A DNA stretch of 36,226 nt from an archaeon (lineage in GTDB: Archaea > Asgardarchaeota > Heimdallarchaeia > Heimdallarchaeales > JAJRWK01), in NCBI GenBank assembly GCA_024276795.1, contig JAJRWK010000110.1:1-36226 (forward strand), in the 5' to 3' direction. Shown piece after piece: positions 7,318 through 32,779 of this stretch. Position 1 is the stretch's first letter; every line of letters starts with the position of its first letter. Made by a program: the position numbers and the translations under genes. The notes under the pieces are model-generated. The model was given only the letters and a program-made list of their open reading frames with translations. It was not told the DNA's origin and searched no databases.

Positions 7318-8451
7318 ATGAGCAGCCTCCTTTCTTTGATCGATAAAATAGTGGAAGGCATCAGAGACATCCCGCAATGGCTATTAACCTTGCTAAACCG
7401 AATACCCTATGTTGAATTGCAAGGGAAAAATGCTGAGCGAGCAATAGTCGTTTCCTTGCTCTCAGCGGCATTAGGAACATATGTACTCCTTAATCTGCTT
7501 TTGGCTCCGTGGATTGAAAGAAAAGTCATGGCACGAATGATGGGGCGAAGAGGCCCTGTTTACGTCGGAAAATTCGGATTATTGCAATTGATCGCAGATA
7601 TCGCGAAATTGTTGTTCAAGGAAGACACAATGCCAATGACTGCAGATCGCTTCGGATTCAACCTTTCAATTTATCTTATGGGGGCATCTACTATCATGTC
7701 TTTTGGACCCTTGCCATGGGCTAGAGACCTAGCAGGCACCAACATGAGTATCGGTCTGTTGTATATCTTTGCCGTATTCTCCGTCTTCCCACCGGCAATG
7801 TTGCTTGGTGGTTGGGCAAGTAATAGTAAATATTCCCTAATCGGAGGCTTCCGAGCGGCTGCTCAACTTGTGGCTTATGAAATCCCCATGATGATTAGTG
7901 TCCTTGGGGTTATCGTTTATGCTCAGTCATTCAATTTACAAGCAATAGTTGAAGATCAATATCAAAATGGTTGGTACATTTATCGTGCTTTTCCCGGGCT
8001 TCTCATGGCCTTTGTGATTTTTCTTTTCGCAAGTTTGGCAGAAACTGAACGTATCCCCTTCGACATTCCCGAAGCCGAAGCTGAGCTTGTGATGGGGCCA
8101 AGAACAGAATTCAGCGGCTGGAGGTATGGGATTATCTTGTTAGTAGAGTACAGCCACATGTTTGTGAATATCATACTTGTTGTAGTGCTGTTCTTGGGAG
8201 GCTGGGATGTTATCTTCCCATTCAATGGGATGCCTGGCTGGTTAGCTGACCTCCGAGACGATCGCTTGGCACAATTTATAGCCATCAACATTAAAATCTA
8301 TCTTGGTGTATTCTTCGTAACCTGGGTACGCACAACATTCCCTCGTTTCAGAATCGACCAATTCATTGAGTGGGGCTGGAAGACCTTATTGCCATTGTCA
8401 TTGCTTTCCTTGGCTATTGTTGGAGCATATGCCGGATTATACGTTGCTTAG
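7318..8451 (+). CDS. nuoH: NADH-quinone oxidoreductase subunit H
   Basis: A 377-residue membrane subunit that joins the peripheral and membrane arms of complex I and forms most of the quinone chamber. About eight helices are visible. The family signature E-R-K-V-M-A-R-M-M-G-R-R-G-P at about residues 67-80 and the quinone-side loop E-R-I-P-F-D-I-P-E-A-E-A-E-L-V near residues 243-257 are intact. The N-terminus is some 40 residues longer than in bacterial NuoH, with an amphipathic lead. Start ATG is preceded by GGTGAG at 7309-7314. First gene of a tightly spaced nuoHJKLMN run; the homologous Fpo/Fqo subunit H is the alternative name. Confidence 0.96.
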   Translation: MSSLLSLIDKIVEGIRDIPQWLLTLLNRIPYVELQGKNAERAIVVSLLSAALGTYVLLNLLLAPWIERKVMARMMGRRGPVYVGKFGLLQLIADIAKLLFKEDTMPMTADRFGFNLSIYLMGASTIMSFGPLPWARDLAGTNMSIGLLYIFAVFSVFPPAMLLGGWASNSKYSLIGGFRAAAQLVAYEIPMMISVLGVIVYAQSFNLQAIVEDQYQNGWYIYRAFPGLLMAFVIFLFASLAETERIPFDIPEAEAELVMGPRTEFSGWRYGIILLVEYSHMFVNIILVVVLFLGGWDVIFPFNGMPGWLADLRDDRLAQFIAINIKIYLGVFFVTWVRTTFPRFRIDQFIEWGWKTLLPLSLLSLAIVGAYAGLYVA

Positions 8452-8465
8452 GAGTTGATGAAAAA

Positions 8466-8990
8466 ATGGGTTGGTTTTTAGAATTTAATATGATCGTGAT
8501 CATTATTTTCACGCTTTTCATGGCATTTGGCGCTCTTCGCACTGATAAAGTTATGAAGGCTGCTGCTTATCTCTTGCTAACTTTATGGGGGGTTGCTTTT
8601 GCCTACTTATTCTTGGGATCTGAGTATGTCTTTGCGATCCAGCTGATTGTTTATGGTGGTGGTATCGTTGTCTTGTTCCTGTTTTCCGTGTTGCTAACAG
8701 GGCAGGAAGAGTTCCAAATGGATAAAGAATTTGTTTGGAATAATTTGGTTCAGATCCTTATTGCGTTGCTCTTATTCTTCACACTGACAGTGCTGATGCT
8801 TGACGTGTTTGGCGGTTATGAACTGACAGGAAACGAACTAGTAGTCTTGAATGAGACTCAAGACCTAACTCAAACACTTGCGACAGCACTCTTCACAAAT
8901 TACAATTATGTGCTTCCAATACTTGGTATTTTGTTGCTCTCTGCCATGCTTGGGTCGATCAAGATTGCGATTAGAGAGGAGGAATTGTAA
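8466..8990 (+). CDS. nuoJ: NADH-quinone oxidoreductase subunit J
   Basis: A 174-residue subunit with five membrane helices that helps build the proton path near the quinone site. The hallmark Y-G-G-G-I-V-V-L-F-L-F segment, home of the pi-bulge helix TM3, is present near residues 60-70. The frame is open upstream into nuoH, but the ATG at 8466 is chosen because the protein then begins at the usual first helix and GGAG (8451-8454) lies upstream. The 14-base gap to nuoH implies one transcript. The stop at 8990 abuts the nuoK start. Confidence 0.95.
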   Translation: MGWFLEFNMIVIIIFTLFMAFGALRTDKVMKAAAYLLLTLWGVAFAYLFLGSEYVFAIQLIVYGGGIVVLFLFSVLLTGQEEFQMDKEFVWNNLVQILIALLLFFTLTVLMLDVFGGYELTGNELVVLNETQDLTQTLATALFTNYNYVLPILGILLLSAMLGSIKIAIREEEL

Positions 8991-9305
8991 ATGGTCGTAC
9001 CACTCGAATATTTCTTAATTCTCAGCTCTGCATTATTCAGCATCGGCGTCTTCGGCGTAATCACACAAAGAAACGCTGTTAGAATCCTCATTGCGGTAGA
9101 GCTAATCATTAACGCCGCAAATATCAACTTCGTAGCCTTCGCAAGTTACAACCCTGTTGGTGATATTTCCGGCTGGATCTTTGCGCTATTCATTATTGCA
9201 GTAGCTGCCGGAGAGGCAGCAATCGGGCTAGCGATTTTCATCAATGTCTTTCGTAACTATGGAGAAATAGATGTCGGGCATCTATTCACTCTTCGTGAGG
9301 TGTAA
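8991..9305 (+). CDS. nuoK: NADH-quinone oxidoreductase subunit K
   Basis: A 104-residue, three-helix subunit related to MrpC. It carries the two conserved membrane glutamates, one in A-V-E-L-I-I-N-A-A-N in the second helix and one in G-E-A-A-I-G-L-A in the third, both needed for proton transfer between the E-channel and the antiporter-like subunits. It starts immediately after the nuoJ stop and is preceded by GAGAGGAGG, a strong ribosome-binding site inside nuoJ. Length is exactly typical. Confidence 0.96.
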   Translation: MVVPLEYFLILSSALFSIGVFGVITQRNAVRILIAVELIINAANINFVAFASYNPVGDISGWIFALFIIAVAAGEAAIGLAIFINVFRNYGEIDVGHLFTLREV

Positions 9306-9308
9306 AAA

Positions 9309-11417
9309 ATGGCCAGCGAAATTCTACTCGGAAAAACAGTACTCATCTCCCCATTCATTGGGGCTGTCATCGTTTCAATTCTAGCTTTTCTCCATTACAG
9401 TCGTGGTAATAAGCACGAAGGGCACGACTCTGGAAAACACGATACGCACGAAGAGCACACAAGTATTCATTACACCAGGTTTGAAAACGTTGTTTCAACA
9501 TTTGGCATTCTTTCCATTCTCGTGAGCTGGCTTTCAATGGTTTTGCTTGCGATCAACTACTTGCCTGGGGAAGAACATGAAACGCTGCAGTCACAATTTG
9601 GGTTCTTTGGATTTAAAGAAGGAGGCACGCCCGACATTCCTTTTGGATTATTAATTGATCCTCTAAGCGTGTACATGGGCCTAATAGTAACCACTCTAGC
9701 CTTGCTAATTCACATTTACGCAAGAGAATACATGCATGGTGATGCTGGGTATTCCCGATTCTTTGCCACATTCAACTTCTTTACTGGTGTAATGCTGACG
9801 CTCGTTTTCAGCACTAGCTTTCTTGAATTATTCATCTTTTGGGAACTAGTCGGGCTCAGCTCCTATCTGCTTATCGGCTTTTGGTTCTACAAACCAGCTG
9901 CCGCCCATGCTGCAAAGAAAGCATTTCTTTACAACAAAATTGGAGATATTACCCTTTTAGCTGGTTTCCTTATGCTATACAGATATACCCGTACCCTTGA
10001 TTTTGTTGAACTCCCCGCAAAAATGGAAGCCCTCACAGACCAGCAGATCGCAATTGTTGCCGTTCTCATCTTTGGAGGAGTCATAGGGAAATCTGCTCAA
10101 TTTCCACTTTACACATGGCTTGCAGATGCTATGGAAGGTCCAACACCCGTTTCTGCAATTCTGCACTCCTCCACTATGGTAAAAGCAGGAATTTACATGG
10201 TGGCTCGTGTATTTTTCATCTATTACGAAGCACATGATGGACACAACGTATTCGCCGGCGCAGAATGGGCATTAACAGTATTTGCTTGGATTGGTGCAAT
10301 TACTGCTCTTCTTGCCGGACTACAAGCCTTGGTTGAAAATGAGATCAAAAGGATTCTAGCTTATTCAACGGTGTCTCAGATTGGCTACATGGCGATCGCA
10401 CTTGGTACAGGCGGAAAAACTGCAGCAATGTTTCACCTCTTGAGCCATGCAACATTCAAAGCTCTTCTCTTCTTAACTGCAGGAGCAGTTATTCACGCAG
10501 TTCACACAAACAACATCTGGGAAATGGGAGGCCTTCGCAAGAAAATTCCTAAGACGTTTTGGCCCATGCTGATCGGAGCGACAGCTCTAGCGGGCTTTCC
10601 CGGATTTAGTGGCTTTTGGTCCAAAGACGCCGTTCTACTAGCAGCATACGAGAGTAAAGTCCCTGGTCATCTGGTTATTTATTATTTGGGTGCATTGACG
10701 GCATTCATAACCGCACTTTATTCAACACGTTTCATTTACGTAGTATTCTTCCGAACTCCTGATCCCGAACACAAGGAGCACGTCGAGAAGGCTCATGATG
10801 GAGGTTTCTTCCTCACCACGCCTTCCATTATCTTAGGAGTTCTCGTTCTCATAGAGAGCATCCTATTCATTCCAGTATTCAACTTTGAGCATTGGCTCAA
10901 TGAGATACTAGAGCCAGAGGTCAAACCCGAGGCGATTAACTACGTGGTAGCTGGCTCGAGTGCAATCATCGTGCTTCTGGGTATCTTTGTAGGACTAGTG
11001 CTTTATCACTGGAAACCTGAGCTACGAACCTCACTTTACAACATTGATGCATTCAATTGGATTGCAAATGAATTCATAGCCAAGCGGTACCGAATTGACC
11101 AAGTACTATACTGGATCGCCAACGCCCCTGTGATGTGGGTTGCTGGCATTTTGCAAAGCATCGACCTCAAAATCATCGACCGAACTATCATCGATACTTG
11201 GATCGTAAAAGGTTCCCTACAACTGGCCAAAATCTCTGATGTCTTCGACCAAGGATTCATTGACGGTATTGTTAATGGCGTCTGGCAAATATTTCTCTAC
11301 TTTGGTCGTCAATTCCGCAAACTCCAAACCGGCCTCGTCAGCAATTACGCCACAATATTTGCCGCAACACTGGTCTTATTCCTGACATATGTCAACTTCT
11401 TAGTTCTATTCAAATAA
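9309..11417 (+). CDS. nuoL: NADH-quinone oxidoreductase subunit L
   Basis: A 702-residue antiporter-like subunit (MrpA-type), the distal proton pump of complex I. Key charged residues are present: Glu179 in F-W-E-L-V-G and Lys261 in G-K-S-A-Q, with a further Lys in S-S-T-M-V-K-A-G. The C-terminal third (about residues 540-702) holds the long lateral helix and the last membrane anchor, so the subunit is full length. Unusual is a His-rich loop after the first helix, with seven His between residues 29 and 54, and a second cluster near residues 485-497 (E-H-K-E-H-V-E-K-A-H). GAGGTG overlapping the nuoK end serves as ribosome-binding site. Confidence 0.96.
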   Translation: MASEILLGKTVLISPFIGAVIVSILAFLHYSRGNKHEGHDSGKHDTHEEHTSIHYTRFENVVSTFGILSILVSWLSMVLLAINYLPGEEHETLQSQFGFFGFKEGGTPDIPFGLLIDPLSVYMGLIVTTLALLIHIYAREYMHGDAGYSRFFATFNFFTGVMLTLVFSTSFLELFIFWELVGLSSYLLIGFWFYKPAAAHAAKKAFLYNKIGDITLLAGFLMLYRYTRTLDFVELPAKMEALTDQQIAIVAVLIFGGVIGKSAQFPLYTWLADAMEGPTPVSAILHSSTMVKAGIYMVARVFFIYYEAHDGHNVFAGAEWALTVFAWIGAITALLAGLQALVENEIKRILAYSTVSQIGYMAIALGTGGKTAAMFHLLSHATFKALLFLTAGAVIHAVHTNNIWEMGGLRKKIPKTFWPMLIGATALAGFPGFSGFWSKDAVLLAAYESKVPGHLVIYYLGALTAFITALYSTRFIYVVFFRTPDPEHKEHVEKAHDGGFFLTTPSIILGVLVLIESILFIPVFNFEHWLNEILEPEVKPEAINYVVAGSSAIIVLLGIFVGLVLYHWKPELRTSLYNIDAFNWIANEFIAKRYRIDQVLYWIANAPVMWVAGILQSIDLKIIDRTIIDTWIVKGSLQLAKISDVFDQGFIDGIVNGVWQIFLYFGRQFRKLQTGLVSNYATIFAATLVLFLTYVNFLVLFK

Positions 11418-11438
11418 TAGGAGAAAGGTGAAGCGAGA

Positions 11439-12971
11439 ATGGTATTCTATTGGTATCTTTCAATACTCTTATGGCTCCCGCTTATAGCGAGTCCTCTAAC
11501 ATATATGCTCAGCAAAAACAAGGTTGGCTGGGCGAAATGGAGCGCCACAATCATTACATTCGTTGAAATGATCTATTCGTTTGTGTTGTGGATGCTCTAC
11601 ACTTCCAAAGATCGATTTGGAGACAAGTACGTAACAGGTGATGGGTTCGTTTTTCTAGAAAAAACGGACTGGATCGTTGTAGGAAAGATCAAGATTTACT
11701 ATGCTCTCGGCGTTGATGGCCTATCCTTGCCCTTGATCGCCTTGACCACAGTAGTCTTCTTTGCAAGCATGATCAGTTCATTCTACATCAAGGAGAGAGA
11801 ACCCCTTTACTATTCTCTCATGCTTCTGCTTGAAGCTGGAGTCATGGGGACGTTCATTGCTCTCGATCTCTTCCTCTTCTACATTGCATGGGAAGTAGTA
11901 CTTGTACCAATGTTCTTCATCATTGCCTATTGGGGTGGACCCCGACGCAAATATTCTGCGTTTAAGTTCTTCATTTACACTCACTTGGCCTCTCTATTCA
12001 TGCTAATCGGTATCTTCATCCTCTACAATGAGGGTGGTGGAACATTCTACATGCCGCAACTGAAGACTTCACTTTCCACTTACGCAGATGTTGGCCGACT
12101 CATTTTTGCATTCTACTTGTTAGCAATAGGTTTCATTACGAAGTTCCCACAAGTCCCCGTTCATACCTGGCTACCAGATGCTCACGTTGAAGCCCCAAGT
12201 CCTGGTTCAAGCGTCTTAGCTGGCTTGTTGCTTAAAATGGGAGGATACGGTCTAATCCGCTTAGGTGTCTGGCTTTTGCCATCAAGCGTATTCACTGATC
12301 CTTCAAGTCATGTTCGTCTAGTGCTTGCCCTCCTTGGTATGATCTCAATGGCATACACGGCATTCGTTGCACTAAGTCAAAAAGACATGAAACGACTAAT
12401 CGCATATTCTTCCATCGGGCACATGGGTGTTGTCTCACTCGGCGTAGCGTCCTATACCTCAGAAGGAATTAATGCTGCTATCTTCATGATGATTGCCCAC
12501 GGCGTCATTAGTCCTGCTCTCTTTTTGATCAGCGGAGTCATCCAGCACAACGCGGGCACAAGAGACATGACTGTCCTCAAAGGTCTTGGTAACAAAATGC
12601 CAATCACGAGCACTCTAATGGTATTCAGTGGGTTTGCAAGCGCAGGATTACCTGGCCTTGCCGGCTTTGTCGCGGAATTCCTGATGTTTGCTGGTTTATT
12701 CAAGAGTGACATGTTTGGATACGGTGACACCTACTTCTGGATAACCGTAGTTGCCTTGCTCTCTATCATCGTCGTCGCCGGTTACTACTTGTGGATGCTT
12801 CAAAGAGTAGTGTTTGGACAACCAGAAGGTCTAGAGGTTGAACATGACGGGCATTGGTATGAACTAATGCCTCTCTGGTTACTTGCATTCTTCATCCTCT
12901 TCCTGGGCTGGTTCCCATTCGTTGTGCTCAAAGTAACCGACGAGTTTGCACGAACTATTATTCCAATCTGA
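11439..12971 (+). CDS. nuoM: NADH-quinone oxidoreductase subunit M
   Basis: A 510-residue antiporter-like subunit (MrpD-type) with about 14 membrane helices, the middle proton channel of the membrane arm. Essential residues are recognisable: Glu152 in A-W-E-V-V-L-V-P and Lys235 in I-T-K-F-P-Q-V-P, followed by H-T-W-L-P-D-A-H-V-E-A-P, a NuoM hallmark that differs from NuoL and NuoN. GGAGAAAGGTGAAG precedes the ATG; the gap to nuoL is 21 bases. The C-terminal helix ends K-V-T-D-E-F-A-R-T-I-I-P-I without truncation. It is separated from nuoN by 160 bases, the only large gap in this run. Confidence 0.96.
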   Translation: MVFYWYLSILLWLPLIASPLTYMLSKNKVGWAKWSATIITFVEMIYSFVLWMLYTSKDRFGDKYVTGDGFVFLEKTDWIVVGKIKIYYALGVDGLSLPLIALTTVVFFASMISSFYIKEREPLYYSLMLLLEAGVMGTFIALDLFLFYIAWEVVLVPMFFIIAYWGGPRRKYSAFKFFIYTHLASLFMLIGIFILYNEGGGTFYMPQLKTSLSTYADVGRLIFAFYLLAIGFITKFPQVPVHTWLPDAHVEAPSPGSSVLAGLLLKMGGYGLIRLGVWLLPSSVFTDPSSHVRLVLALLGMISMAYTAFVALSQKDMKRLIAYSSIGHMGVVSLGVASYTSEGINAAIFMMIAHGVISPALFLISGVIQHNAGTRDMTVLKGLGNKMPITSTLMVFSGFASAGLPGLAGFVAEFLMFAGLFKSDMFGYGDTYFWITVVALLSIIVVAGYYLWMLQRVVFGQPEGLEVEHDGHWYELMPLWLLAFFILFLGWFPFVVLKVTDEFARTIIPI

Positions 12972-13088
12972 GGTTGAACATCGGGGCATAACCATGGCAT
13001 CCACAACTAATTACATTGCAAACCAGCAATCATACAATATCGCGCTTTGCTCACGTCATGGTGTAATGCCCAATCCCTCTCTTGTCTC

Positions 13089-13097
13089 TTATAAAAG
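13089..13097 (+). promoter_or_regulatory. Internal TATA box for nuoN
   Basis: TTATAAAAG lies 39 bases before the nuoN ATG in the nuoM-nuoN gap. Initiation about 26 bases downstream would leave a short leader carrying AAAGGAGGTC (13114-13123), so nuoN may also be made from its own promoter. The rest of the 160-base gap could encode at most a 44-residue peptide (ATG at 12994) with no recognisable features. Confidence 0.45.
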
Positions 13098-13131
13098 AAA
13101 AGGGAAAAAGCAAAAAGGAGGTCTATAATTC

Positions 13132-14607
13132 ATGTCAGAATATGAAATTGTCATAAAATCATTCATGCCGATCTACATCCTAATAGGGGGTAGCATCCTA
13201 TCTCTCCTAATGGACTGGTTGCTTAATGAAGAGAAGAACAAACATGCATTGCCCAGCATAACCTTACTCACATTATTGCTCTCTGCATTCTCTGTCTGGA
13301 ATCGACCAGACCCTGCTCTATTTCCTGGTAATCCCGCAATGTTTTACTTCGGGAGCTATTACGTGTTCTTTGCCCTTACAAGCATTGCAGCGAGTATTAT
13401 CGTTGTTCTTGCTGCTTGGAAGGACATGGAACTTGAGCTAAGCTTGGGAGTGTTTTATGCATTGTTAATGTTAGCAAACATTGGCATCTTCGTAATTGGT
13501 GCCTCAAATAACTTAATCCCTCTCTACGTTGGCTTCGAAGTACTTAGCATCTCAACCTATGCAATGATCGGCTTCAGAAAGAAATCACGATCTGGTGCGG
13601 AAGCAGCGATAAAATACTTCTTACTAGGTGCTCTTTCATCTGGGATCATCCTCTTTGGAATGAGTTTATACTACGGGGCGACTCATACGCTTCAAATGAA
13701 CTCAACAGTTGCCGCAGCGCTAGTATCTTCGGGTTCATCACCCAACGCCTTCGGTCTTTTCACCATGGCGGTATTAGTTGCTGGGGTGAGCTTCAAAATT
13801 GCGGCTGTTCCATTCCATGTATGGGTACCCGATGTTTATAGAGGGGCACCATTAAGCGTTACGAATTTCCTTGCCATTGGAAGCAAAGCAGGAGGCTTCG
13901 CCTTTCTCTTTAAGCTATTCTTTGTAGCACTTCTAACGATCAAGGCCGGTTGGGCCCCCGTCTGGGCGGGACTGGCTCTGCTCACAATGGTAATTGGAAA
14001 TCTTGCAGCTTTGCCACAAACAAGCGTTACTCGAATTCTTGCATATTCAAGTATCGGCCATGTTGGCTACATTCTTATTGCCATGGTGGCGTTTGCAGAC
14101 GGGTCAACAGAGCTTGCGGTTGTTGGTGCGCTGTATCATATCTTGGCCAATGTATTCATGAAAGGAACTGCATTCGTAGTAGTGCTTATCGTAGTTTTGA
14201 CGAAAGGCGGGGACACTTTGGATGACTTTAAAGGATTAGGCAAGCGCGATCCTCTCGTCGCATTCTTCATGAGTATTGCTCTTCTTTCCCTCGCAGGAGT
14301 GCCGCCCTTTGCCGGATTCTTTGGCAAATTCTTCTTGTTCTATGCTGCCGTTGATTCAGGGAATATGTATCTTGCCGTGGTTGGCATTATTATGAGTGCG
14401 ACCTCGCTATTCTATTATGCTCGCATCATCCATGTCATGTATTTCTATGAACCTGTAGATGATGCCTCTGACCAATCACAACCACGCTTCTTGGTTCTAC
14501 TCGTAGCTTTGCTACTCGCAAATCTAGCACTTTCCCTTGGAGCTATCTTTTACACACGCAGTATTGTTGATTTTGCGACCCAAGTGGCTCAAGAATTTTT
14601 TGTGTAA
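13132..14607 (+). CDS. nuoN: NADH-quinone oxidoreductase subunit N
   Basis: A 491-residue antiporter-like subunit with about 14 membrane helices, the proximal proton pump. Glu136 (G-F-E-V-L-S-I-S) and Lys222 (S-F-K-I-A-A-V-P-F-H) correspond to the conserved pair. The F-H-V-W-V-P-D-V-Y-R-G-A-P stretch is typical of NuoN. The ATG has a perfect AAAGGAGGTC ribosome-binding site upstream, and a TATA box in the nuoM-nuoN gap could drive separate expression. Last gene of the cluster; a hairpin terminator follows. No nuoABCDI or electron-input genes adjoin it. Confidence 0.96.
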   Translation: MSEYEIVIKSFMPIYILIGGSILSLLMDWLLNEEKNKHALPSITLLTLLLSAFSVWNRPDPALFPGNPAMFYFGSYYVFFALTSIAASIIVVLAAWKDMELELSLGVFYALLMLANIGIFVIGASNNLIPLYVGFEVLSISTYAMIGFRKKSRSGAEAAIKYFLLGALSSGIILFGMSLYYGATHTLQMNSTVAAALVSSGSSPNAFGLFTMAVLVAGVSFKIAAVPFHVWVPDVYRGAPLSVTNFLAIGSKAGGFAFLFKLFFVALLTIKAGWAPVWAGLALLTMVIGNLAALPQTSVTRILAYSSIGHVGYILIAMVAFADGSTELAVVGALYHILANVFMKGTAFVVVLIVVLTKGGDTLDDFKGLGKRDPLVAFFMSIALLSLAGVPPFAGFFGKFFLFYAAVDSGNMYLAVVGIIMSATSLFYYARIIHVMYFYEPVDDASDQSQPRFLVLLVALLLANLALSLGAIFYTRSIVDFATQVAQEFFV

Positions 14608-19881: not shown

Positions 19882-20217
19882 TTGTTATCACAACGCAAAT
19901 TCCAACCAATACTAGAAAACCTACTCAAATACAACGGTGTCAAGTCCGTGGTCATTGCAAATGAGGAAGGATTTCCTCTTGCATTTCAGTCGAAGGATCC
20001 TTCCTTCACCTCAGATGATGCTGAAGTAGCGGCTGCCGTATTTGCGTCCCTCGTGGGCAAGGCAAATCTGGCAACAAAACAGATCAATAGGGGAGAACTT
20101 AATTTCTTCACCTTAGATCTAACCACTGGTGAGATTCTGGTTGCTCTCGAACAAGACTATATTGTTATTGCTATACGTGAGAGACCAGATAAAACATCTC
20201 GAAGTTTAATGTCCTGA
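19882..20217 (+). CDS. Roadblock/LC7-like domain protein 1
   Basis: A 111-residue small alpha/beta protein of the roadblock/LC7 superfamily, dimeric platforms that bind small GTPases (MglB, LAMTOR, dynein LC7). It shows the usual pattern of an N-terminal helix (F-Q-P-I-L-E-N-L-L), the strand G-V-K-S-V-V-I-A-N-E-E-G-F-P-L-A, a long helix (E-V-A-A-A-V-F-A-S-L-V-G-K-A), and paired strands ending Y-I-V-I-A-I-R-E-R. The final helix is shortened compared with roadblock 2 at 21034. The start is TTG at 19882, after GAGGCGAG. The GTPase gene follows 55 bases downstream in the same direction, so the two are probably co-transcribed. Confidence 0.82.
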   Translation: MLSQRKFQPILENLLKYNGVKSVVIANEEGFPLAFQSKDPSFTSDDAEVAAAVFASLVGKANLATKQINRGELNFFTLDLTTGEILVALEQDYIVIAIRERPDKTSRSLMS

Positions 20218-20272
20218 TGGATCAACATAGGAACTCATTGTAATTGCTGAACAAAGGAAGGAGAATAGAAGC

Positions 20273-20869
20273 ATGCGAAAGGATACCAAGGGAAGAATTC
20301 ATTTTAAAGTCGTTTTCGTTGGGCCGTCATTGTCCGGCAAAACCACACTCCTCCGATACCTGCATGATCAAGTACAGGGTCTACTCAAGGGGAGTCTCAC
20401 TTCGGTAGAGGATCCCAGTGGAAGAACGATTTATTTTGACTTTGTCCCGTTTAGTGCTACGGGGAAAGTATTGCTAGATGTATACACCGTTGCGGGGCAA
20501 CGTAGACATCGCGATCAGAGAAAATTGATTTTGAAAGGAGTTGACGGGTTACTCTTTGTTGCAGACTCTAATCCCGAGTTACGAAACGACAATATAGAAT
20601 CTGCTGATGAGCTTCGATTGTTCTTCGGTGACAAGCTTGGTAGTGAAATCCCCTTGGTAATTGTTCTAAACAAGAGAGACCTTCCTAATGCGATGGATCG
20701 AGACGACATGATCAAGGACTTGTCATTCCCACCCGGCACCCCTGTGTTCGAGACGATCGCAACAAAAGGAGTAGGCGTTAAGAGAGCATTTCAAAGCTTG
20801 TCCCGTGAAATCATCTTAAGAAAACTTTACGCACCAAGTGCTGAAACAAAACCAACCACAACAGAATAA
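20273..20869 (+). CDS. MglA-like small GTPase 2
   Basis: A 198-residue GTPase of the MglA type. The P-loop is G-P-S-L-S-G-K-T at residues 17-24, the switch region contains S-G-R-T-I-Y-F-D-F with Arg51 at the MglA arginine-finger position, switch II is T-V-A-G-Q at 72-76, and guanine specificity comes from N-K-R-D at 133-136. The stretch L-I-L-K-G-V-D-G-L-L-F-V-A-D-S is almost diagnostic of MglA-family proteins. Length equals bacterial MglA. ATG with GGAGAA upstream (20259-20264). It is flanked by roadblock genes on both sides, the classic MglA-MglB pairing, in which the roadblock dimer acts as GTPase activator or exchange partner. Confidence 0.93.
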   Translation: MRKDTKGRIHFKVVFVGPSLSGKTTLLRYLHDQVQGLLKGSLTSVEDPSGRTIYFDFVPFSATGKVLLDVYTVAGQRRHRDQRKLILKGVDGLLFVADSNPELRNDNIESADELRLFFGDKLGSEIPLVIVLNKRDLPNAMDRDDMIKDLSFPPGTPVFETIATKGVGVKRAFQSLSREIILRKLYAPSAETKPTTTE

Positions 20870-21033
20870 GGCAAAAGAATGTCAGACCTCTCGAACTCGT
20901 ATTATTCTCTTGCATATTTGCTCTTATCTTTTTGCCGAAAAATCATTTGAATGAATACACTACACAGAAAGCATTAAAATCAAAGACGAAGTAAGTACTA
21001 ATGTCATAAACACAAAGGCGAGGGCCGATCACA

Positions 21034-21420
21034 TTGTTTGACATTGGATTCGAATCAAAACAAACAGAATTGCGAAGTATATTGAAAGAACTGGAAATGA
21101 ACATTCGAGAAATCGAAGCAGCTGCAGTTGTTAGCATCGAGGGGCTACCCATAGCAGCATCATTGCCTGACGACATTGAGGAAACCATGTTGGCAGCGAT
21201 GACAGCTTCCATGCTGAGCCTAGGAGAAAGAGTTTCCCAAGAGCTCAAACGAGGAAATCTCGAAAAAATCTTTGTCGAAGGCTCCAATGGTTATGTGATC
21301 TCAACAGCAGCCGGCCCCAATGCAGTACTCGCCGTTTCGGCTAGAAAAGATGCCAAACTCGGCCTAATCTTCCTCGACATGCAGCAAGCGGCCCAGAAAA
21401 TCGCCCAACTCCTTTCGTGA
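21034..21420 (+). CDS. Roadblock/LC7 domain protein 2 (MglB-like)
   Basis: A 128-residue roadblock/LC7 protein closer to MglB than roadblock 1. An N-terminal helix (L-R-S-I-L-K-E-L-E-M-N-I) leads to strand A-A-A-V-V-S-I-E-G-L-P-I-A-A-S-L-P, a long helix (E-E-T-M-L-A-A-M-T-A-S-M-L-S-L-G-E-R), and G-N-L-E-K-I-F-V-E-G. The final strands A-V-L-A-V-S-A-R-K-D and helix are complete. Its likely partner is GTPase 2, 164 bases upstream. In that gap GGCAAAA (20870-20876) can pair with TTTTGCC before 20938 across a long loop. The start is TTG at 21034; GGCGAGG lies upstream. Whether it activates or anchors the GTPase cannot be read from sequence. Confidence 0.93.
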   Translation: MFDIGFESKQTELRSILKELEMNIREIEAAAVVSIEGLPIAASLPDDIEETMLAAMTASMLSLGERVSQELKRGNLEKIFVEGSNGYVISTAAGPNAVLAVSARKDAKLGLIFLDMQQAAQKIAQLLS

Positions 21421-21514: not shown

Positions 21515-22141
21515 GTGAATTCCGAAATATCTGACTTGATCTCCTCTCTATACCAATCGTTTGAAATTAAAGATAACATCCGGGAGCAATTGTTGCAATA
21601 TAATCGACAACTTACGCTGGCTAGTGGCAAAGCTATTCAAGCCATACAGCGTGAAGACATGGGATCCGTGCAAAAATGGTTGTCGGAAGCAAAGGTAATG
21701 TTAGTGAACATCATGGATTTACTTGAAAAATACCCTTGGTTCCTAGGCTGGGGAGGTGTTCATTCCGGGATCGAAGAATATTGTGAAGCTGAAATTCTCT
21801 ATGCGATAATAACCAATGCTCCGTTGCCAACTCCCGATAAGTTAGGTGTGCCTGAAGAATTATACCTTTTAGGGATTGGAGATGTTCCGGGAGAGTTACG
21901 AAGAATTCTACTTCGAGACCTCTCTAAAGGAGAAACCCAAAGACCGAGGCGTTTCGTTGAGCTGATCGGTGAAATATATTCCTCCATGATGCAAATTGAA
22001 TTCTCAAAGGGTCTTATTTCAAATCTTAGGAAAAAGATTGATCGTATTAGGTTTGTCCTTGAACAGAGTGAAAGTGATTATGCTAGGGCTGTATTAACAC
22101 TCAGACTAGAATCCAAACTTGATCAATACTCTGGGGAATGA
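21515..22141 (+). CDS. Translin family protein
   Basis: A 208-residue all-helical protein of the translin/TRAX family, which forms octameric barrels binding single-stranded RNA or DNA; in eukaryotes translin-TRAX (C3PO) trims small RNAs and tRNA 5' leaders. The family pattern is seen as R-E-Q-L-L-Q-Y-N-R-Q-L-T near residue 23, S-G-I-E-E-Y-C-E-A-E-I-L-Y-A-I at about 86-100, then Y-L-L-G-I-G-D-V-P-G-E-L-R-R at about 117-130, the best conserved stretch. The C-terminus L-R-K-K-I-D-R-I-R matches. Whether the TRAX-type catalytic acids are present cannot be settled by eye. Its stop overlaps the start of the next gene (ATGA), suggesting translational coupling. Confidence 0.9.
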   Translation: MNSEISDLISSLYQSFEIKDNIREQLLQYNRQLTLASGKAIQAIQREDMGSVQKWLSEAKVMLVNIMDLLEKYPWFLGWGGVHSGIEEYCEAEILYAIITNAPLPTPDKLGVPEELYLLGIGDVPGELRRILLRDLSKGETQRPRRFVELIGEIYSSMMQIEFSKGLISNLRKKIDRIRFVLEQSESDYARAVLTLRLESKLDQYSGE

Positions 22142-23169
22142 CGATGAAAACGGTTACGGGGATAGTAGCTTCGGGTCTAGGAAGAGGTCGACGTTTCTGT
22201 TCATTGCTTCCCTACCGTAATGCCTTTCGCGATTTAATGGGTTTGGAAGTATTTCCCGGAACTTTGAATCTCGAGCTCGGCAAGAAAGAAAGTCATCTCA
22301 TCTGGCAATACGTGGAACAAAGGGGAGAACACGTTCGGTCATTTCGCTGGGATGGCAAGCAATATGGCGCTATTCAGCTCGCTCACGTCGATATCAATGG
22401 AACACCTGCTGCGATCGTTGCGCCTCACAAAACAACACACACTGAAACTACTGTTGAGATTATTGCAGAGTCCAAACTTCGTGACTCTCTAGGACTCGAG
22501 GATGGTGATCGGGTACGTCTTGAATTCCCCGGAAGACGAGTACAGTTGCGGAAGGCAGACAATCTATGCATTCTAAAGAAAGCTCTGTCAGCATTTTACT
22601 TTTCCACGCCATTTTCTCCGAAAGGAATTTCGTGCATGACTGATCAGCGAGCACAACAACTTACTCAAGAGCTTGTGGGAGCAGGAGCATTAGTTCCAGT
22701 TAGTGAAGGCTATGAACTTACTTATTCCGGACGTTCCCTTCTCCGAGTTGTGTTCACAGGTGGGGTCTATGATTTATTACATGTTGGCCACCTAGCAACA
22801 TTGCAAGAAGCAAAGAGTCTAGGGGACTATCTTCTAGTGATAGTTGCTAGAGACGAGACTGTTATGAAATTCAAACAACGAAAACCCATAAAGCCTGAGG
22901 AAGAAAGGCGTAAGATCTTAGAGCAACTCCGTCCTGTTGATCTCGCATTGCTTGGCCAACGTCAGAACTATCTTCAAACTGCGCTACAATTTCGGCCAGA
23001 TATGATCGTAATGGGACACGATCAAAGAATGGAAATCGAGGGGATCCTCTCATTTCTTGAGGAAAAGGGATATCCACATATTCGAGTTGAAAGATTAACT
23101 GCTAGAGTTGAGGGCAGATCCACGACGAAGCTAATCGAACAAGCAAAACACAGAAATTCTGGAAAATAA
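22138..23169 (+). CDS. ribK-ribL: Fused CTP-dependent riboflavin kinase / FAD synthetase
   Basis: A 343-residue apparent fusion of the two last steps from riboflavin to FAD. Residues about 5-135 are the archaeal CTP-dependent riboflavin kinase (DUF120): G-L-G-R-G-R-R-F nucleotide loop near 13-20 and P-G-T-L-N-L with Thr42/Asn44 as metal ligands. Residues about 135-205 form a linker resembling a winged helix (Q-Q-L-T-Q-E-L-V-G-A-G-A-L-V). Residues 205-343 are an archaeal RibL-type cytidylyltransferase fold with H-V-G-H at 215-218 and S-T-T-K-L-I near the end. In Methanocaldococcus the two activities are separate proteins. Start ATG overlaps the translin stop. No frameshift joins them: one open frame. 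Confidence 0.92.
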   Translation: MTMKTVTGIVASGLGRGRRFCSLLPYRNAFRDLMGLEVFPGTLNLELGKKESHLIWQYVEQRGEHVRSFRWDGKQYGAIQLAHVDINGTPAAIVAPHKTTHTETTVEIIAESKLRDSLGLEDGDRVRLEFPGRRVQLRKADNLCILKKALSAFYFSTPFSPKGISCMTDQRAQQLTQELVGAGALVPVSEGYELTYSGRSLLRVVFTGGVYDLLHVGHLATLQEAKSLGDYLLVIVARDETVMKFKQRKPIKPEEERRKILEQLRPVDLALLGQRQNYLQTALQFRPDMIVMGHDQRMEIEGILSFLEEKGYPHIRVERLTARVEGRSTTKLIEQAKHRNSGK

Positions 23170-23203
23170 TTCTCTTTCGAGTAGTGAATCGTGTCATTCA
23201 TCT

Positions 23204-23655
23204 TTACGCTGGAATTGGGGAATTCAATTCGATTATATTTCTTTCAGGATCAACAAAGTGAGCCACTTGAATTCGCCACTCTTTTTTGTTGATTGGCTTG
23301 GTTAAGAAATTGACACCTTTCGCCTTTAGTTCTTTGAATTTCTTGTCAACATCTTCTACGGGCATAGTCAGAACTAAATCTAGATTGATTTGATTAGCGA
23401 CGTTATTCTGATGTTTTTGATTCCCAACGTCCTTACCATTTCTTTTCTGTTAAATAGGGCTAACTTACTACCTCCTGTTTCGAATTCTTCGTAGGGACCG
23501 TTTCGAGCTGAGAACTTTGCTTTGAATCCAAGCTGCTCCCCGGAGAACTGGTGCATCTCTTTGAAATTATCTGTGAGGAATCGGACGTATTCTATTCCTA
23601 GTATCATTGGTTGATTGTAACTGACATCCTTATTCATGTATTCTGTGAAAATCAC
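23204..23655 (-). pseudogene. VOC (glyoxalase/bleomycin-resistance) family protein, frameshifted
   Basis: The first part (GTG at 23655 or ATG at 23637 to the stop at 23380) encodes a VOC-type half: E-Y-V-R-F-L-T-D-N-F, then G-S-K-L-A-L-F-N-R-K. The rest continues in another frame down to a TAA at 23204-23206, with V-L-T-M-P-V-E-D-V-D-K-K-F and V-A-H-F-V-D-P-E-R-N-I-I-E-L, the metal-ligand strand that ends these domains. Joining them needs a single-base change near the A-rich GAAAAGAAA (minus strand) around 23448. The joined protein would be about 150 residues, normal for a single VOC domain. It may be a recent pseudogene or an assembly error. Reaction unknown. Confidence 0.75.
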
Positions 23656-32146: not shown

Positions 32147-32779
32147 TCACTTTTCATAAATATCGACCGTCCCATTTCCAAGCAAATATGTTCTAATTCT
32201 CTTAAGATCAACAATTGTTTCAAAAGCTAAAGGGACACTATTTGTGCCTCCGAGGATTAATGGTGATCTAAAGACCCTAAGTCTCAGATTTATCCCTGAA
32301 CGCAAGAATAAAGAAAAAATCTTGCTTCCCCCTTCAACAAAAAGGCTATGGTAACCTTTGTCTTCCATCCATCCTAATATTTCTTCAACTGCATTATCCG
32401 GGTTAATTGTAACAATTTCTGCTTGGTTAAGCACACCTTTCTCTTGTAATACTTTCACTCCCTTAGGAGAAGAAAAAAGTGTAGTAGGAGCATTCGAATC
32501 TAGGACTCTTGCTTTAATCGGAATGTTGCCGGAAATTGTAAGCACCGCTCTGTGGGGGTGTTTTCTAGGTTTCTTGCCTATCCATTCTTGCTTGACAAGG
32601 AGGGAAGGGTCATCGATTCGAAGCGTTTCTGCTCCTACTAATATGACATCATACGCTTCTCGTAAAAGATGGACTTGTTTCCAATCTTCATCATTGCTAA
32701 GCTTTGTTTCCCTCCCTTTTCTTCCAAGGAAACCATCTGAAGACACTGCACAATTCAAAAGAACCTTAATAGGTCTCAT
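32147..32779 (-). CDS. RibD C-terminal-type reductase, riboflavin pathway
   Basis: A 210-residue dihydrofolate-reductase-fold protein of the RibD C-terminal family. In archaea the free-standing form reduces 2,5-diamino-6-ribosylamino-4(3H)-pyrimidinone 5'-phosphate with NAD(P)H, an early riboflavin step. Supporting segments: L-N-C-A-V-S-S-D-G-F-L-G near residues 8-19, D-V-I-L-V-G-A-E-T-L-R-I-D-D-P-S-L, and L-F-V-E-G-G-S-K-I-F in the C-terminal half. Length is that of the archaeal single-domain enzyme. With the kinase/FAD synthetase fusion at 22138 it gives two flavin-pathway genes in the window, not adjacent. ATG start; divergent from ileS. Confidence 0.92.
   Translation of the reverse strand: MRPIKVLLNCAVSSDGFLGRKGRETKLSNDEDWKQVHLLREAYDVILVGAETLRIDDPSLLVKQEWIGKKPRKHPHRAVLTISGNIPIKARVLDSNAPTTLFSSPKGVKVLQEKGVLNQAEIVTINPDNAVEEILGWMEDKGYHSLFVEGGSKIFSLFLRSGINLRLRVFRSPLILGGTNSVPLAFETIVDLKRIRTYLLGNGTVDIYEK

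Follow-up and report, generated by a model that had tools for sequence, protein, structure and literature searches.

A single gene in the window (the whole stretch of archaeal DNA that was analysed, 36,226 nucleotides) joins a predicted CTP-dependent riboflavin kinase, a winged helix and a predicted FAD synthase in one polypeptide. The open reading frame lies at 22138-23169 on the forward strand, stop codon included, and contains 343 codons with an ATG start and zero internal stops. Judging from the sequence, the gene most probably encodes a genus-restricted bifunctional RibK–FAD synthase that is convergent with bacterial RibF.

The kinase domain occupies residues 4-132 (22147-22533, forward strand) and is of the RibK/MJ0056 type. 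In Pfam, residues 10-129 matched PF01982 (CTP-dep_RFKase, DUF120) with an E value of 5.6e-30 and a score of 104 bits against a cut-off of 25, covering positions 1-120 of the 121 in the model. The PDB sequence match for residues 5-132 was the riboflavin kinase MJ0056 (2p3m/2vbu set, 6.5e-20). When the AlphaFold model was searched with Foldseek, the best PDB matches of the kinase half were MJ0056 with CDP and FMN (2vbu and 2vbv), 2vbu with an E value of 8e-12 and a TM-score of 0.85 by target length, and RbkR (5trd) was also matched. In an alignment with 14 kinases including MJ0056, residues G8, G13, G17, GTLN 41-44, E107, R115 and D122 were invariant. The kept glycines include those of the nucleotide-loop motif SGLGRG (residues 12-17, 22171-22188, forward strand), and the GTLN motif (22258-22269, forward strand) was found in 15/15 riboflavin kinases. 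By the PDB alignment, T42 and N44 of this motif correspond to T43 and N45 of MJ0056, which we take to be Mg2+ ligands.

In the kinase tree, the fused kinase half grouped with the wing-less RibK type (MJ0056 and f4, a sister family of the same order), apart from 28 RbkR-type rows, whose group had an SH-aLRT of 100; its exact position is unsure owing to long branches. By every feature that a sequence allows to be tested, the kinase half is a member of the DUF120 family, and CTP as its phosphate donor is predicted from that membership. The fold, the GTLN motif and the full PF01982 domain are common to MJ0056 and the fused kinase, and neither has an N-terminal wing. MJ0056, however, is a stand-alone kinase of ~136 amino acids, whereas the kinase described here is fused to a putative FAD synthase.

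The putative FMN adenylyltransferase (FAD synthase) domain follows at residues 202-341 (22741-23160, forward strand). Residues 206-333 matched PF01467 (CTP_transf_like) in Pfam with an E value of 3.2e-17 and 63 bits against a cut-off of 21, and the PDB sequence match for residues 201-320 was the archaeal cytidylyltransferase-like protein 3glv of Thermoplasma volcanium (1.1e-20). Foldseek gave 3glv as the best PDB match of this half, besides other nucleotidyltransferases. Across the alignment of archaeal FAD synthases, D268, G273, P287-D288, Q296 and the residues H215, G217 and H218 of the HxGH nucleotidyltransferase motif (HVGH, residues 215-218, 22780-22791, forward strand) were invariant, and the same alignment located a C-terminal ISTT-like nucleotidyltransferase motif, GRSTT, at residues 326-330 (23113-23127, forward strand). 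The sequence-only reading had claimed a DUF120 kinase and an archaeal-type cytidylyltransferase in one open frame, and this was borne out, the order of the domains included, by the matches to PF01982, PF01467, MJ0056 and 3glv within 343 stop-free amino acids.

No Cys is present in residues 167-343, and the two cysteines of Methanocaldococcus jannaschii RibL are thus missing from the C-terminal domain. The archaeal-type FAD synthase of Entamoeba histolytica is also without these two cysteines and is biochemically active, with ATP only (PMC11423594); therefore, the cysteines are typical of archaeal FAD synthases but do not define them. The cytidylyltransferase-like fold, the HxGH motif and the archaeal relatives are common to the fused half, archaeal RibL (MJ1179) and the Entamoeba enzyme (PMC11423594), whereas only the fused half sits behind a kinase with a winged-helix domain in front.

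The nucleotidyltransferase superfamily has a wide range of functions. Other substrates were considered for this half, namely that it transfers a nucleotide to a sugar phosphate, to glycerol phosphate or to pantetheine phosphate, in which case the fusion would join two pathways. The best NCBIfam match of the C-terminal half was RfaE domain II, and models of glycerol-3-phosphate cytidylyltransferase and phosphopantetheine adenylyltransferase were matched as well, all of them below their cut-offs. In a superfamily tree with RfaE2/TagD, the nearest rows were archaeal FADS-like proteins, while the long bacterial branches and an AU p of 0.54 left other placements of the bacterial families compatible with the data. 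On the other hand, the closest stand-alone relatives are archaeal proteins that heimdall and thaumarchaeal genomes encode next to a riboflavin kinase, no other FAD synthase candidate was found in the 87%-complete genome, and the fusion to riboflavin kinase itself favours the next step of the pathway. A different substrate is accordingly considered unlikely, and the C-terminal half is very likely an archaeal FAD synthase. In the FADS tree its nearest family was f4 with an SH-aLRT of 80, a placement that long branches make inexact.

The rest of the genome, a MAG that is 87% complete, was searched family by family. The fused gene is the only DUF120 gene in this 87%-complete MAG, where the bacterial RibF domains PF06574 and PF01687 were also absent, with positive controls, and no separate RbkR was found. 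A second riboflavin kinase or a RibF was likewise not found in the DUF120, PF06574 and PF01687 searches. Two genes contain PF01467, the fusion and an NMN adenylyltransferase-like protein, GIYVGRFQPLHNGHL, named by its sequence. Since completeness is 87%, the absence of a second FAD synthase is provisional, and one could lie in the missing sequence. A RibD_C-type reductase gene is located at 32147-32779 in the same window as the fusion. Together with a gene for DHBP synthase, which lies on a different contig of the genome, it fits a cell that makes riboflavin.

A connector helix and a winged-helix segment (residues 133-201, 22534-22740, forward strand) lie between the two catalytic domains. In the AlphaFold model residues ~134-200 form a winged helix, and a profile-profile comparison with hhalign matched the middle segment to the wHTH family of RbkR with a probability of 95.7, in agreement with the winged-helix-like segment described earlier from the letters alone. 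A Pfam search with the middle segment by itself gave no family. In sister Heimdallarchaeota and Thaumarchaeota, stand-alone FAD synthases of 205-230 amino acids have the equivalent segment as their N-terminal domain. Hence, the fold proposed for this segment stood and its description as a linker did not: as far as sequences can tell, the wing is the inherited standard N-terminal domain of the sister FAD synthases and not an invented linker.

RbkR is a known regulator-kinase (PMC8305020) that, like the fusion, carries a winged helix and a DUF120 kinase in a single protein (3cta, 5trd). Its wing, however, is N-terminal and precedes the kinase, and it has no cytidylyltransferase domain, whereas the fused kinase starts at residue 4 and its wing follows. 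The fused wing does not contain SQQTASR, by which the recognition helix of the RbkR rows is marked, and the wing as an RbkR domain was rejected on its position and this missing motif. Because the wing also occurs in the stand-alone FAD synthases and is without SQQTASR, we infer that it was brought in by the FAD synthase and is not a regulator domain of the RbkR type. It could still be argued that the fusion is a flavin-responsive transcription regulator as well, the wing binding DNA as in RbkR, which would give the protein three functions. The hhalign match, the 5trd structure with cognate DNA and the genome without a separate RbkR would agree with such a role. The wing, however, varies freely (between the fused gene and that of the relative G031 it is 44% identical, whereas the catalytic domains are 63-65% identical), and it is enclosed by two enzymes, in contrast to the free N-terminus of RbkR. 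These differences make a DNA-binding third function very unlikely.

The fused frame is real. It recurs as one frame with no internal stops in G030 (93% identity) and in G031 (60% identity), so that 3/3 available genomes of the genus contain it; G030, the same as locus L032, is the published MAG 'Candidatus Heimdallarchaeota archaeon isolate S139'. In the profile search G030 was scored with one stop, which is a codon on the start side or the end side, and its 342-aa frame itself is open. In relatives, the two genes stand in tandem, some in the same frame and one or two stops apart, and a single base error could mimic a fusion of two such adjacent genes by assembly or gene calling. The whole joined frame is nevertheless free of stops in three separate genomes (93% and 60% identity), and therefore a chance frame, a mis-assembly or a gene-calling junction, the last two of which had been named in advance as possible refutations, is excluded; we give an artefact practically no credence. 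Between the two closest genomes, dN was ~0.04 per catalytic domain and dS was saturated at ~4 or more, which places the two catalytic domains under strong purifying selection. AlphaFold gave a confident three-domain model (pLDDT 91.1, pTM 0.85).

The best ~155 matches of each search were considered for the distribution, with Euryarchaeota and DPANN sampled only and a part of the archaeal genera covered. Among the matches listed for 228 Asgard genomes, a stop-free match over both halves occurred only in the three genomes of the genus. Among those listed for 398 genomes from the phylum to which the thaumarchaeal G228 belongs, none spanned both halves. With a both-halves profile run on 393 genomes sampled across the Archaea (228 Asgard and ~165 others), the whole frame was open only in the same three, again among the matches listed. 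In plasmids, the matches listed all had a single domain and were from bacteria and haloarchaea. Four other long frames were rejected as kinase-FADS fusions: those in G570 (325 aa), G664 (408 aa) and G159 (723 aa) are open-frame extensions or contain unrelated neighbours, and that in G078 (426 aa) is two genes one stop apart. Restriction of the fusion to the genus is the best reading of these searches. No report of such a fusion was found in open-access full text.

In the sister families, the riboflavin kinase and FAD synthase genes are neighbours. In family f4, a wing-less RibK gene comes directly after a translin gene. Its member G033 has, beyond the translin-RibK pair, a winged-helix FAD synthase gene in convergent orientation and then genes for a GPN-type GTPase and a roadblock protein. 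The window around the fusion contains the same gene set. Its translin-family gene (PF01997; 21515-22141, forward strand) lies directly upstream, and its stop overlaps the start of the fused gene (ATGA). The fused lineage probably began from an f4-like order in which one gene was turned round. A translin-RibK pair in the ancestor of a single genus of the Heimdallarchaeota type would have adjoined a winged-helix FAD synthase gene, the two genes would have been brought into line, and the intervening stop would have been lost. Tandem riboflavin kinase and FAD synthase genes also occur in f3, f12 and f13, and in some genomes they share a frame, with one or two stops plus a short spacer between them. 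These near-fusions are independent and show how small the step to a fusion is.

Five of the near-fusions (L004, L010, L083, L044 and L045, from f12, f13 and f3) are possible candidate sites of stop-codon readthrough. A translin-family gene was also observed beside a riboflavin kinase or FAD synthase gene in L080 (G570) and L098 (G040), besides the one in the window, which suggests that the translin link is conserved across distant archaea (Asgard and a second phylum); Pfam backed the translin gene of the window only, and those of L080 and L098 were recognised by sequence. Just upstream, at 19882-21420, an Arf/Ras-like small GTPase gene lies between two roadblock/LC7 genes, a typical Asgard small-GTPase cluster. 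Downstream, a glyoxalase/VOC-like gene on the reverse strand (23174-23655) is apparently broken by a frameshift, and its two frames jointly read as one protein. It sits in a gap of ~600 bp that measures 146 and 51 bp in the two relatives. The longer fragment matched no family in Pfam, and the VOC call is a reading of its sequence. Farther away, a run of membrane genes at 7318-14607 resembles subunits of respiratory complex I (Nuo), by translations only.

As predicted from family membership, the N-terminal RibK domain would convert riboflavin and CTP to FMN and CDP, and the C-terminal RibL-like domain would convert FMN and ATP to FAD and PPi. The winged helix between the enzymes may serve as a spacer or a dimer scaffold. 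Direct handover of FMN between the two sites is speculative, and so is a regulatory role of the wing. A fuller proposal, in which an independently evolved, genus-specific analogue of RibF hands FMN over directly and its wing also senses flavin or controls flavin gene expression, seems highly improbable to us.

Bacterial RibF is bifunctional, with a PF06574 FMNAT domain followed by a PF01687 ATP-dependent kinase. Like RibF, the fusion is predicted to take riboflavin to FAD on one polypeptide, whereas its kinase is unrelated, its FMNAT belongs to a different family and the order of the domains is reversed. The independence from RibF that had been put forward on first reading was upheld, as neither PF06574 nor PF01687 was found in the 87%-complete genome and the two halves each group with archaeal genes that are unfused. 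The chemistry itself is expected, and the arrangement is found in one genus only. The fusion offers a natural test of whether evolution has repeatedly favoured the joining of a riboflavin kinase to an FAD synthase, from different kinases and in the opposite order of domains, and of the weight to be given to channelling. As a Rosetta-stone fusion, it also ties archaeal RibK to the winged-helix FAD synthases, and therefore it strengthens the functional call for many Asgard and thaumarchaeal proteins that are now annotated by guess.
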